DNA of 43,103 bases from Cellulomonas sp. (lineage in GTDB: Bacteria; Actinomycetota; Actinomycetes; Actinomycetales; Cellulomonadaceae). The translations under genes and the position numbers were made by a program. The stretch covers positions 1 through 43,103 of the forward strand of contig JAKLPK010000257.1 of the NCBI GenBank assembly GCA_022013895.1, written 5' to 3'. Positions 7,912-12,753 of the stretch are shown piece after piece (the first letter of the stretch is position 1; each line of letters starts with the position of its first letter). The notes beneath the pieces were generated by a model that saw nothing but the letters and a program-made list of their open reading frames with translations, searched no databases and was not told where the DNA came from.

Positions 7912-7980
7912 GGGGGACCCGGGACGTCCAGGTCCCGTGACCCGTACGGCGCGGGTGCCGTATGTGGAGGAGGGACGGGC

Positions 7981-9861
7981 GTGGGACTGCTCGAGGGCAT
8001 CCGTTCGCCGACGGACGTGCAGCGGCTGTCGGCACGGCAGGTGACCCGGCTCGCCGCCGAGATCCGGGTGTTCCTGGTCGACCAGGTCTCCCGCACCGGT
8101 GGGCACCTCGGTCCGAACCTCGGCGTCGTCGAGCTGACCATCGCGTTGCACCGTGTCTTCCGCTCGCCGCGGGACACCTTCGTCTTCGACACCGGTCATC
8201 AGGCCTACGTCCACAAGCTGCTGACGGGGCGCACCGACTTCTCGGGCCTGCGCAAACGGGGCGGGCTGTCCGGCTACCCGTCCCGCAGCGAGTCCGAGCA
8301 CGACGTCGTGGAGAACTCCCACGCGTCGACGGCTCTGTCGTGGGCCGACGGCATCGCGCGGGCGCGTGCGCTGATGGGCGAGGACGACCGGTCCGTCGTG
8401 GCGGTGATCGGCGACGGCGCCCTCACCGGCGGGATGGCCTGGGAGGCCCTCAACAACATCGCCGACGGCAACGACCGCGGCATCGTGATCGTGGTCAACG
8501 ACAACGGGCGGTCCTACGCCCCGACGATCGGTGGCCTGGCCCGGCACCTCGACGCCCTGCGGACGGCCCGCGGTTATGAGTCCGTGCTCGAGTGGGGCAA
8601 GTCGACGCTGCGGCGTTCAGGCCCGCCCGGACGCTTCGCCTACGACGCGCTGCACGGGCTGAAGAAGGGCATCAAGGACGTCGTCGCACCTCAGCAGGGC
8701 ATGTTCGAGGACCTCGGGCTGAAGTACATGGGTCCGGTCGACGGGCACGACGAACCGGCGGTGGAGCGTGCATTGCGCCTGGCCAAGGCCTACGGCGGGC
8801 CCGTCATCGTGCACGTCATCACCCGCAAGGGGAACGGCTACTCACCGGCCGAGCAGGACGCTGCCGACCGGTTCCACGCCGTCGTCCCGATCCACCCGGA
8901 GACCGGGCTGCCGCTCGCACCCTCCCGCTTCGGGTGGACCGGCGTGTTCGCGGACGAGATCGTCCAGATCGCGCGGCGCCGTCCCGACGTGGTGGCGCTC
9001 ACGGCTGCGATGCTGCAGCCGGTGGGGCTCGCCGCGTTCGCCGAGGAGTTCCCCGACCGGGTCGTCGACGTCGGGATCGCCGAGCAGCATGCCGCGACCG
9101 CTGCTGCCGGGATGGCGTTCGCGGGGCTGCACCCCGTGTTCGCGGTGTACGCGACGTTCCTCAACCGCGCGTTCGACCAGCTGCTCATGGACGTGGCGTT
9201 GCACAGGGCTGGGGTCACCTTCGTGCTCGACCGCGCCGGGCTCACCGGGGACGACGGGGCCAGCCACAACGGGATGTGGGACCTGGCCCTGCTGTCGATC
9301 GTGCCGGGGCTGCGCCTTGCGGCACCGCGTGACGAGCAGACGCTCCGGGCCGCGCTGCGCGCGGCGGTGGACGTCGACGACGGCCCGACCGTCGTGCGCT
9401 ACCCCAAGGGCGCGCTCGGCGCACCGCTGCCCGCGGTGGACGAGATCGACGGTGTCGATGTGCTGGCCCGCCACGAAGGCCAGCCAGGGCACCCTCGGGT
9501 CCTGGTGGTGGGGATCGGCTCGATGGCGGGCACGGCGCTGGCGGTGGCCGAGATCCTGGCCGCCCATGGTCTGGCCGTGGAGGTGGTGGACCCGGTCTGG
9601 GCCCTGCCGCTGCCGAGTGCGCTGGTCAAGCTCGTGGGTGAGCACCCTCACGTCGTGACGATCGAGGACGGGCTCGTCGACGGCGGGATCGGCACGTTGG
9701 TGGCCGCTGCGGGCGCCCGGATGGGGACCAGGGTCCAGTCCTTCGGGGTGCCCCGACGCTTCCTCCCGCATGCGAGTCGGGAGCAGCTCGTGGCCGAGCT
9801 GCACCTCGGATCGCATGAGATCGCAGGTCAGGTGCTTGCCCTGCTCGCCGACGCGGGCTGA
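7981..9861 (+). CDS. dxs: 1-deoxy-D-xylulose-5-phosphate synthase
   Basis: 626 residues, normal for DXS. It condenses pyruvate and glyceraldehyde 3-phosphate in a thiamine-diphosphate reaction, the first step of the MEP isoprenoid pathway, in the cytosol. Visible motifs are [14 protein letters not shown] and [14 protein letters not shown] near the N-terminus, the TPP/Mg site [15 protein letters not shown] around 142-156, [11 protein letters not shown] with the catalytic glutamate, and RYPKGALG. The loop after TAAM reads LQPVG instead of the common PEGTG; I recall similar wording in other actinomycetes. The GTG start is supported by GGAGGAGGG about 7 nt upstream. It is monocistronic or weakly linked to the PFL-like gene 78 nt downstream. 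Confidence 0.95.
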
Positions 9862-9906
9862 GGGGCTGCAGGCCCTACGTCCCGGTCGGGTGCATCACCT
9901 GCTCCG

Positions 9907-9912
9907 TATGGT
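9907..9912 (+). promoter_or_regulatory. Putative -10 element upstream of the PFL-like gene
   Basis: TATGGT lies 27 nt before the ATG at 9940. The leader would contain the Shine-Dalgarno GGAG at 9931-9934. No convincing -35 is seen, so this is tentative. Confidence 0.35.
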
Positions 9913-9939
9913 CGAGACGGACCGAGACCTGGAGCGGTG

Positions 9940-11817
9940 ATGAGCATCGACCTCACAGGGACGGCTGCAGTTGCCGCATGGGCCGGCTTCGCCGCCGGCC
10001 CATGGCAGGAGCAGATCGACGTACGCGACTTCGTGCTGCGGAACGTCGCGCCGTCGTCCTGTGCGGACGTCGTCCCAGCAGGGCCGTCGCCACGGGTCGC
10101 TGCGCTGGTGCAGCGTGCAGCCGGTGGACTCGGCGACTGGGTGGCGGAGCTGCTGGTCGGCCTGCCGGCCGAGGTGTGGCGGTCGCTGGAGACGCGGAGC
10201 GCCCCGGCCCAGGCGTTCGAGGACGTCGCTTCCCAGGATGTGCGGGCCGCGCGGGCGGTGCACCTGGTGAACGGTCCGATCGACGGCGGCGGTCGGGTCC
10301 TGGGTGATGCGCGACGGGTCGCCCTCTACGGTCTCGATGCCCTGGCGGCGGCCAAACGCGCCGAGCGCAACGACCTCGACCTGCTGGCCAGCACCGAGCA
10401 GGTGGTCCGTCAGCGGGCGGATCTGGCCGAGCAGCTCATCGGTATGGTCCGGCTGGCCGAGCTGGGCGACCTGGCCGGGGTCGACCTCACGCAACCTGCT
10501 CGGACCGCACGTGAAGCAGCGCAGTGGATGCTGCTGGCCTACGTCGCGGGTCTGGTGGAGATCCAGACCGCTGAGACGGCGTGGGGTCGCAACGCGGCGT
10601 TCCTCGACGTGTACGTCGAGCGCGACCTGGCGAGCGGGACGTTGACGGCCGCGCGTGCGCAGGAGATCTGCGACGACGTGGTGCTGGTGCTCGGGATGGT
10701 CGGGCGGATGCGCGCCTGCCGTCCGGTCGTCGTGACCCTCGGTGGGACGGCCGAGGACGGGCGGCACCTGGTCACCGGGACGTCGATGCGGTTCCTGCAG
10801 GCGCTGCGCAACGTGGCGCACGGTCCGCTGCCGGCGCTCGCGGTGCTGTGGTCGTCCCGCCTGCCGTCAGCCTTCCGGCGCGCGTGCGCCGAGGTCAGCC
10901 TGGCGGGCGCGCGCGTGACGTACGTGTCGGACGATCTGGTGCGGGCGTCCTGGGGTGACGACGCCGCGATCGTCGGGAGCGCCTCGACGGCCGTCCGGGT
11001 GGGTCGTCAGGTCACCTATGGCGGCGTGCGGGTGAATCTCGCGAAGGCCCTGCTCTACGCCCTCAACGGTGGGCGCGACGAGCTGACCGGTCGCCAGGTG
11101 GGGCCGGTGGCCTCGGCGGTGACCGGCGATGTGCTGGCGTTCGACGATGTGGTGCCACGGCTGCGTGCGACGCTCGACTGGCTCGCCGGGGTGGCGGTGG
11201 ACTCGCTGGTCTGCGCCCATGCGACCCGGGACCGGTACGGGTACGAACGGGTCGCGATGGCGCTCTCGGATGCGATCGTGCTGCGTTCCCTGGTGTGCGA
11301 GGTGGCCGGGGTTGCGATCGCGGCCGACGGGTTGGCTGCGATCCGGCATGCGACGGTGCGGCCGGTGCGGTCCACCGACGGTCTGGTGGTCGACGTCGAG
11401 GTGGAGGGCACGGTGCCGCGCTTCGGGACGGACGACGACCGTGCCGATGACCTCGCAGTGTGGTTGCTGCGCACCTTCATGTCGGCGTTGCGCGGTCGTC
11501 AGACGTACCGGGGTGCGCTGCACGCGCAGGCGTTGGTGCGACCGGAGGCGGCGGACGGGACCTCGACCGGTGCGACGCCGGACGGCCGGCCGGCCCAGGC
11601 GCCGCTGTTCGCCTGGACTGGGACACCCGATGAGCTGGTGGCCTCGGTGGCCAAGATGCCGTACCCGGAGGCCCAAGCCGGGCTGGCCTGCCCCTATCCG
11701 GTGCATGCCGGCGACCTGGGGGAGCACCCGCGGGCGCGTGCCGCCCGGCTGGTCGAGCTGGTCGATGCAGCGGTCTGCCGGGGCGGCGCGTACGGGTTGC
11801 TCGTCATCGTCCGCTGA
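9940..11817 (+). CDS. Pyruvate formate-lyase-like protein lacking catalytic cysteines and glycyl-radical domain
   Basis: 625 residues, collinear with the barrel of E. coli PflB (760 aa). Matching blocks are RVLGDARRVALYGLD (119-133), FLDVYVERDLASGTLT (221-236), GRHLVTGTSMRFL (274-286), AVLWSSRLP, NLAKALLYALNGG (366-378), ERVAMALSDAIVLRSLVCEVAGV, FGTDDDRADDLAVWLL, TGATPDGRP and VASVAKMPYPEAQAGL. Where PflB has the Cys418-Cys419 pair (IACCVSP), this protein reads AIVGSASTAV (Gly346-Ser347). It stops after AYGLLVIVR, just where the glycyl-radical domain with the RVSGYA glycine should begin. The arginine of FGARANLAK is kept as R364. The frame is uninterrupted and codon use is like its neighbours, so it is maintained rather than decaying. 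Start ATG 9940 has GGAG 5 nt upstream; GTG 9937 is possible. The PFL activase follows 51 nt later. Function unknown: pseudoenzyme, regulator or PflA-binding decoy are all inference. Confidence 0.85.
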   Translation: MSIDLTGTAAVAAWAGFAAGPWQEQIDVRDFVLRNVAPSSCADVVPAGPSPRVAALVQRAAGGLGDWVAELLVGLPAEVWRSLETRSAPAQAFEDVASQDVRAARAVHLVNGPIDGGGRVLGDARRVALYGLDALAAAKRAERNDLDLLASTEQVVRQRADLAEQLIGMVRLAELGDLAGVDLTQPARTAREAAQWMLLAYVAGLVEIQTAETAWGRNAAFLDVYVERDLASGTLTAARAQEICDDVVLVLGMVGRMRACRPVVVTLGGTAEDGRHLVTGTSMRFLQALRNVAHGPLPALAVLWSSRLPSAFRRACAEVSLAGARVTYVSDDLVRASWGDDAAIVGSASTAVRVGRQVTYGGVRVNLAKALLYALNGGRDELTGRQVGPVASAVTGDVLAFDDVVPRLRATLDWLAGVAVDSLVCAHATRDRYGYERVAMALSDAIVLRSLVCEVAGVAIAADGLAAIRHATVRPVRSTDGLVVDVEVEGTVPRFGTDDDRADDLAVWLLRTFMSALRGRQTYRGALHAQALVRPEAADGTSTGATPDGRPAQAPLFAWTGTPDELVASVAKMPYPEAQAGLACPYPVHAGDLGEHPRARAARLVELVDAAVCRGGAYGLLVIVR

Positions 11818-11856
11818 CGGGACGAGAGTCCTGGGACGACTCGCGTGCGGAGCGCG

Positions 11857-11862
11857 TAAAAT
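11857..11862 (+). promoter_or_regulatory. Leaderless -10 element of the pflA gene
   Basis: TAAAAT, the most AT-rich hexamer in the neighbourhood, ends exactly 6 nt before the ATG at 11869. PflA can therefore be made from its own leaderless transcript, independently of the PFL-like gene upstream. Confidence 0.65.
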
Positions 11863-11868
11863 CAACCC

Positions 11869-12753
11869 ATGAATCTTCCGGTGGTGCCTGCGCAGGGCGC
11901 TCCCGTCGTCGAGCTCGGCCTGCCGATGGTGGCCGGTTCGAGCACGCGGACCGCAGGCCACGGTACGGCTGGTCTGACCGGCCACGACCTGGGCCGCAGC
12001 GAGCGGTTCGCCGCACTGCGCTCCGGCGACCTGGGCTCGGTGCACTCGTGGGAGCTGGTGACCGCGGTCGACGGTCCGGGCACCCGGATGACCGTGTTCC
12101 TCTCCGGCTGCCCGCTGCAGTGCCTGTACTGCCACAACCCCGACACCATGCAGATGCGCCGCGGGACCCCGATCGAGGCCGATGAGCTGCTCGGGCGCAT
12201 GCGCCGCTACCGGGGCGTCTTCCGGTCCAGCGGTGGCGGGCTGACGGTCTCCGGCGGCGAGCCGCTCATGCAGCCGGCGTTCACCGCCAGACTGCTGCGC
12301 GGAGCCCAGGAGCTCGGCATCCACACGGCGCTGGACACCTCGGGATTCCTCGGCGCGGCCTGCACGGACGCGATGATCGAGGACCTCGACCTCGTGCTGC
12401 TCGACATCAAGTCGGGGCTGCCCGACACCTACCGGAAGGTCACCGGGCACGACCTGGCCCCGACCCTGGAGTTCGGACGCCGGCTCACCGAGGCCGGGAC
12501 GCCGATCTGGGTGCGGTTCGTCCTGGTGCCGGGGCTGACCGACGCCGTCGAGAACGTCGAGGCCGTCGCCGACCACATCGCCGCGCTGTCGACCGTGACC
12601 AGGGTCGAGGTGCTGCCGTTCCACCAGATGGGCCGCGACAAGTGGGCCGATCTGGGGATGCGGTACGAGCTGGAAGAGACCCGCCCGCCGAGCCACGAGC
12701 TCGTCGAACGGGTCCGCTCCCAGTTCCGTGCCCGGGGCCTGACGACCTTCTGA
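11869..12753 (+). CDS. pflA: Pyruvate formate-lyase-activating enzyme (radical SAM)
   Basis: 294 residues. The radical-SAM cluster motif C-x3-C-x2-C is intact at C81, C85 and C88 (SGCPLQCLYCHNPDT), followed by the SAM-binding TVSGGEPLMQP (127-137) and the C-terminal RVEVLPFHQMGRDKW. It abstracts hydrogen from the active glycine of pyruvate formate-lyase using a 4Fe-4S cluster and S-adenosylmethionine. Compared with E. coli PflA (246 aa) it has an N-terminal extension of about 50 residues rich in Gly, Ala and Pro, encoded from the leaderless ATG. Its usual partner, a functional PflB, is not in the window; the neighbouring PFL-like protein has no glycine to activate, so the true substrate must be encoded elsewhere. 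Confidence 0.93.
   Translation: MNLPVVPAQGAPVVELGLPMVAGSSTRTAGHGTAGLTGHDLGRSERFAALRSGDLGSVHSWELVTAVDGPGTRMTVFLSGCPLQCLYCHNPDTMQMRRGTPIEADELLGRMRRYRGVFRSSGGGLTVSGGEPLMQPAFTARLLRGAQELGIHTALDTSGFLGAACTDAMIEDLDLVLLDIKSGLPDTYRKVTGHDLAPTLEFGRRLTEAGTPIWVRFVLVPGLTDAVENVEAVADHIAALSTVTRVEVLPFHQMGRDKWADLGMRYELEETRPPSHELVERVRSQFRARGLTTF

Follow-up and report, generated by a model that had tools for sequence, protein, structure and literature searches.

The 43,103-nucleotide window analysed here corresponds to contig C194 in the assembly G000 (3.76 Mb, 304 contigs; completeness 89.8%, contamination 5.6%), which comes from a congener of Cellulomonas citrea. At positions 9940..11817 of its + strand it carries a gene for a 625-aa protein, here designated PFLx, a pyruvate formate-lyase (PFL) barrel without the catalytic Cys-Cys pair and without a glycyl-radical domain. 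Based on Pfam searches, alignments and ratios of nonsynonymous to synonymous substitution (dN/dS), we consider it reasonably probable that PFLx is a selected PFL pseudoenzyme, likely with a non-catalytic partner role in formate and fermentation metabolism. Orthologues are present in the metagenome-assembled genome KR13_N1.mb.16 (G083, locus L003; 92%) and in C. citrea Ao-9 (G028, locus L004; 88%). Both encode 625 aa free of indels and internal stops and lie in the identical dxs-PFLx-pflA neighbourhood. PFLx combines the disappearance of its catalytic residues with purifying selection, as expected of a pseudoenzyme.

The protein matches the PFL-like model (PF02901) with 306.9 bits (cut-off 24.3; E 4.4e-91) across positions 128-636 of the 647 in the profile. 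Up to E = 1 it matches no further Pfam model, Gly_radical (PF01228) included; four fused PFLs from relatives match both models. It fails the PFL equivalog TIGR01255 (420.1 bits vs. a cut-off of 994.2). PFLx was aligned to E. coli PFL (1h16), from which the E. coli residue numbers were counted by hand, and to 13 further PFLs, including one encoded in G000. The E. coli pair Cys418-Cys419 corresponds to Gly346-Ser347 in the window (codons at 10975..10980, + strand), to Gly-Ser in G083 and to Gly-Asn in C. citrea. The C-terminus falls about where the glycyl-radical domain would begin, and the protein has no counterpart of Gly734. The first-pass annotation of this stretch had described both the Gly-Ser replacement and the premature end, and both descriptions hold in the 1h16 alignment of three species and the Pfam search, respectively. 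Its statement that the gene aligns with PflB over nearly the whole barrel needs correction, as it overlooked a shrunken N-terminal part: E. coli positions 53-139 (87 residues) are represented by just 29 PFLx residues (56-84) that HMMER left unaligned.

The substrate pocket is extensively remodelled. Ala273, Phe432, His501 and His514 of E. coli are replaced by Glu212, Gly361, Arg430 and Ser443, and the equivalent of Trp333 is absent or Val, depending on the aligner. Arg176 (Arg119 in PFLx) and Arg435 (Arg364; codon 11029..11031, + strand) are retained in all three species, which, at the level of the sequence, answers an earlier proposal to check the latter; we take these two to be the substrate arginines, and the roles of the other pocket residues are likewise assumed from E. 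coli PFL work. Among the 390 columns that are invariant across 10 PFLs, the PFLx trio retains 181, alters 153 and deletes 56, and 110 of the 153 altered positions are identical in all three proteins. Reasoning from the E. coli PFL mechanism, PFLx should be incapable of PFL-type radical chemistry, because it offers neither a thiyl site nor a glycyl radical. The claim that it is no repairable PFL stands as well: the cysteines are missing, and the search of G000 (89.8% complete) turned up no separate or spare glycyl-radical gene, its sole PF01228 match being a second PFL on contig C141. Repair by a GrcA-like protein was ruled out, since no such gene was found in G000 and the cysteines are gone.

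The reading frame starts with an ATG at 9940, preceded by GGAG at 9931-9934, and comprises 625 uninterrupted codons and a stop, as had been noted before, and the frames of the two other species are equally intact. The three pairwise dN/dS values (NG86) are 0.083, 0.112 and 0.134 for PFLx, compared with 0.083-0.131 for PflA and 0.053-0.098 for DXS. Neutrality was rejected by a codon model (MG+F3X4, IQ-TREE; lnL -3835.6 with omega free vs. -4193.3 with omega = 1). PFLx pairs differ at 192-232 of 625 third codon positions and at 22-41 of 625 second positions, and a neutral simulation with 0.3 changes per site and an assumed base composition introduced in-frame stops into 500 of 500 copies (mean 6.9). 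The view of the first-pass annotation that the gene is kept for another role and is not dying accords with dN/dS of 0.08-0.13 and three species without stop or indel. A decaying copy was ruled out by dN/dS and the intact frames, and a sequencing or assembly error by the agreement of three separate assemblies, including that of the named strain C. citrea Ao-9; neither such an error nor random disruption in relatives, the two objections foreseen earlier, was encountered in these assemblies, all of which hold the same intact gene.

The constraint on PFLx is concentrated in the half-barrel that forms the pocket half behind the dead cysteine loop, in a block picked after inspection. Variable sites of the trio amount to 9/150 in residues 351-500 vs. 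89/475 elsewhere (Fisher p 9e-5 for this block chosen by inspection), and no such contrast emerges when three other sets of PFLs are divided in this way (p 0.12, 0.35 and 1.0).

PFLx is rare. Beyond the three species it was found in none of the 81 genus genomes, and besides the window's own copy in none of 396 genomes of the order, for each of which a maximum of three candidates was scored. A contig scan of genomes returned four loci, namely the PFLx genes L003 and L004, a Cys-Cys PFL (L005) and a 40-residue match (L006). Cys-Cys is retained in 82 of 87 PFL genes (76 of 81 genus genomes); outside this count are three genomes without a PFL hit (G073, G074, G075), two with fragments only (G023, G082) and the partial second hits of G033 and G081. 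The five genes that deviate are the PFLx trio and the PFL-A, i.e. the dxs-linked type, of G067 (Cys-Ala; L057 8773-11040) and G085 (Ser-Ala; L052 4621-6885), both full-length with an intact glycyl loop. Eleven genomes from other genera of the family had a PFL hit but no match to a Cys-Cys DNA pattern; reading of the hits in these 11 showed Cys-Cys in nine and also in G180 (L112), and in G011 the site lies outside the fragment that was hit.

The PFL-A proteins of other Cellulomonas resemble PFLx in the same barrel and substrate arginines, in about 41-52% identity, varying with relative and alignment, and, for several of them, in dxs-pfl-pflA synteny, but they are about 744-757 aa long and possess Cys-Cys and the RVSGYAV glycyl loop, whereas PFLx with its 625 aa has neither. 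The G067 and G085 proteins come closest: they are the nearest PFL-A in the tree, have no full Cys pair, are under purifying selection (dN/dS 0.093 between the two) and reside in genomes with a Cys-Cys PFL of the second type (PFL-B). Unlike PFLx, they retain both the N-terminal part and the glycyl-radical domain, and PflA could therefore still act on them. These two PFL-A are natural counterparts of the E. coli PflB Cys mutants. The rpoB gene of G067 is split into two frames (contig C8, about 371874-373612), and its assembly may hold base errors; the reading of its PFL-A is supported by the close relative G085.

PFL-B occurs in eight genus genomes and is 41-43% identical to PFLx. The PFL-A accompanying it has Cys-Cys in G088, G068 and G090 and is cysteine-poor with a glycyl domain in G067 and G085; PFLx takes its place in G000 and G028, and PFL-A was not found in G076. 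In G088, G067 and G085 the gene order is dxs, PFL-A, pflA, PFL-B. The search for a canonical pflB elsewhere in the genome, which the first-pass annotation had recommended, was successful: G000 has a Cys-Cys PFL-B on the 3.1-kb contig C141, which stops just short of the radical glycine, and the 99% complete C. citrea has a full-length Cys-Cys copy on contig C425. Both PFL-B are 97.4% identical with a dS of 0.14, a lower value than the remaining genes compared for this genome pair gave. G083 harbors PFLx with no PFL-B in view.

In the PFL tree (LG+C20+F+G4), PFLx sits on a very long branch and groups with the PFL-A of G067 and G085 (bootstrap/SH-aLRT 91/79). Its stem is by far the longest of the tree (3.87 and 2.28 changes per column on either side of the midpoint root), and only short branches (0.04-0.11) separate the three species. 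Rapid change that later gave way to constraint would be expected to produce such a shape. In the rpoB protein tree, by contrast with the PFL tree, G067 is placed with the Cys-Cys group of G088 (SH-aLRT/bootstrap 98.9/93) and the PFLx trio with G076 (99.7/100); its backbone between groups is poorly supported and the G067 rpoB is just partly usable, and the backbone of a dxs+pflA tree is not settled either. Because the rpoB tree separates G067 from the trio, two losses are the more likely scenario, and the cysteines were probably, albeit not provably, lost at least twice in the genus.

The activase gene pflA lies 51 nt downstream of PFLx (11869..12753, + strand; 294 aa), and both genes together make up the stretch 9940-12753. 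Its product is a PFL-activating radical SAM enzyme with the CX3CX2C motif and 298.6 bits against TIGR02493 (cut-off 231.75), in agreement with the earlier statement that the activase keeps its cluster cysteines. It is the sole match above this cut-off found in G000, and G000, G028 and G083 each have one activase above the PFLA cut-off, the one adjacent to PFLx. As the only activase found, this PflA presumably activates the distant PFL-B. Gene order alone thus proves no function of PFLx, and the preserved order loses the weight that the first-pass annotation had given it as an argument for a new role: dxs-pfl-pflA is ancestral in relatives, and PflA is presumably needed by PFL-B.

The following course of events appears the most plausible to us. 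The ancestral, dxs-linked PFL-A would have been freed of its catalytic duty in lineages with PFL-B. In the lineage of the window, alignment and tree show that one long stem branch saw the loss of the Cys pair as well as of the glycyl-radical domain and a large share of the N-terminal part. The product is now held by the purifying selection documented above, and the adjacent PflA was presumably turned over to the distant PFL-B. PFLx may serve as a sensor of small carboxylates by means of its remodelled pocket with both substrate arginines, or alternatively as a hetero-partner of PFL-B or of a formate channel, and a first guess for the functional site would be the pocket or an adjoining face within residues 351-500. 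A PflA-binding regulator, one of the roles proposed in the first-pass annotation, is less likely than implied there, because the Gly loop targeted by PflA is absent from PFLx. Only tentatively would we extend the explanation to PFLs as a source of selected pseudoenzymes: in the Cellulomonas lineages with PFL-B, PFL-A might repeatedly have lost its cysteines, either as a full-length protein able at most to bear the radical without using it, as in G067 and G085, or, in the lineage of the window, as an entirely non-radical barrel whose re-purposed pocket would detect an acid of fermentation or would regulate PFL-B or the export of formate.

Several observations weigh against a selected pseudoenzyme with this role. 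The 351-500 block was picked only after the profile had been inspected, and PFLx is known from three species only. The GC content at third codon positions is 0.87-0.95 in PFLx vs. 0.97-0.99 in the six PFL-A and PFL-B genes compared, which suggests modest expression, and the stem branch itself may reflect relaxed selection. The placement of PFL-B in G000 leans on C. citrea in view of the short contig, the low dS and the 5.6% contamination; PFL-B was not seen in the 81% complete assembly of G083, and G000 is incomplete as well (89.8%).

Among the alternatives, it is unlikely that PFLx is a new enzyme whose remodelled pocket would convert a small carboxylate or an acyl compound by another, radical-free reaction. 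The retained substrate arginines, the identical replacement of Ala273, Cys418, Phe432 and His514 in all three species, the exchange of Cys419 for Ser or Asn, the missing Trp333 and the constraint focused in 351-500 would all fit, but no fresh catalytic motif is recognisable and PF02901 is the sole Pfam match. A little lower still we rate a function as non-catalytic gating partner of a formate channel of the FNT/FocA family. This idea draws on E. coli, where PflB binds the N-terminal helix of FocA and is itself presumed to gate the channel (PMC11841067). FNT genes were found in 11 of 13 genomes tested, including all five with a cysteine-less PFL, but since six of the eight others have them too, their presence is uninformative for the role of PFLx, and FNT genes and PFLx are located on different contigs.

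We give little credence to the notion of a slowly dying paralogue that is functionless and merely unbroken so far. The very long stem, the skewed composition, the narrow distribution and an upstream control box that is weak or lost are what such a gene might exhibit. The low dN/dS with the rejection of omega = 1, the three open frames without an indel over 625 codons and the scarcity of second-position relative to third-position differences largely contradict it. It is hardly credible that PFLx is a barrel which a second protein supplies with the glycyl radical in trans. Such split PFLs exist in related actinobacteria (13/13 short-frame loci read), but their barrels keep Cys-Cys in 13/13 loci and PFLx does not. 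The search of G000 showed no glycyl-radical gene standing on its own; PFLx groups with fused PFL-A, and the sole split PFL in the tree (L005) with PFL-B; and E. coli PflB C418A/C419A is inactive despite its radical and no substitute for GrcA (PMC12338860). PFLx does not display the pairing of Cys-Cys barrel and separate glycyl-radical open reading frame by which split PFLs are recognised.

The split PFLs are a finding in their own right. A Cys-Cys barrel without glycyl domain is followed by a glycyl-radical open reading frame of about 90 aa (RVSGYAV) and then by pflA. This layout was present in all 13 loci that were picked for short frames within the same taxonomic order (L005 5935-8360, L167-L177 and L179), one of them from Brachybacterium squillarum; in L170 the loose regular expression also matched the barrel. 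Both long-frame loci (L178, L181) contain fused PFL. A literature search retrieved nothing clearly on split PFLs.

The locus is completed by dxs (1-deoxyxylulose-5-phosphate synthase; 7966..9861, + strand, precise start unfixed), the upstream neighbour identified by Pfam and synteny, so that the order is dxs, PFLx, pflA, all on the + strand. Upstream of the A-type pfl genes of the genus, the palindrome GGGACnnnnGTCCC is found exactly in 41 of 74 regions and with at most one mismatch in 61 of 74, levels reached by 0% and 2.4% of mononucleotide shuffles, respectively; one example lies just above 10907 in L051 (- strand). The comparison with regulatory boxes includes the mycobacterial form of the DevR box. 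PFLx has a possible weakened box of this DevR/OsdR-like type at a similar place (AGGCCCTACGTCCC; 9870..9883, + strand), with two mismatches, a level of at most two that about 30% of shuffles reach, and another two-mismatch site ranks first. The C. citrea PFLx has a one-mismatch site upstream, and the PFL-A boxes of G067 and G085 are kept with 0 and 1 mismatch. The element resembles the OsdR/DevR hypoxia-response box described in PMC5069765, and its distribution suggests low-oxygen control of PFL in Cellulomonas.

A candidate box of the same type with one mismatch precedes pflA (GGGACGAGAGTCCT; 11819..11832, + strand); in the form GGGACGAG[A/G]GTCCT it stands 49-50 nt ahead of the ATG in all three species. 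TAAAAT (11857..11862, + strand), 6 nt before the ATG, is a candidate -10 element of a leaderless pflA promoter, with the versions TAAAAT, TAAAAT and CAGAAT in the three species. The leaderless -10 proposed in the first-pass annotation therefore finds its counterpart in relatives, but a sigma-70 scan of 9700-12100 detected no full promoter and the leaderless status is that of a candidate. Its own box and the TAAAAT-like element let pflA appear to be controlled separately from PFLx.

Pseudoenzymes are well known among, e.g., kinases and proteases. The PDB entry 1qhm is a 624-residue fragment of E. coli PFL; we take it to be without the C-terminal part but, unlike PFLx, to have its cysteines and a complete N-terminal part, and its solved structure presumably means that a barrel without glycyl domain can be stable. 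Searches of an open-access library showed no natural PFL pseudoenzyme; the nearest precedent is the N-terminal extension of the GRM2 choline trimethylamine-lyase, a natural segment resembling glycyl-radical enzymes without glycyl loop and catalytic Cys, for which a role in encapsulation or organisation is suggested (PMC6325248). This extension is an approximately 350-aa part of an active microcompartment enzyme of another glycyl-radical enzyme family, whereas PFLx is a free-standing barrel. The E. coli PflB C418A/C419A variant shares the missing Cys pair and is catalytically inactive, but it is man-made (PMC12338860), keeps Gly734 and takes the radical, in contrast to PFLx without Gly734.

If PFLx is indeed a selected pseudoenzyme, the PFL barrel would be useful beyond radical chemistry, and formate production could not be assumed for PflB-like proteins in genome annotations. 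The series from Cys-Cys through Cys-Ala and Ser-Ala to Gly-Ser without glycyl domain would then represent a natural experiment on a radical enzyme that loses its chemistry and is nevertheless retained.

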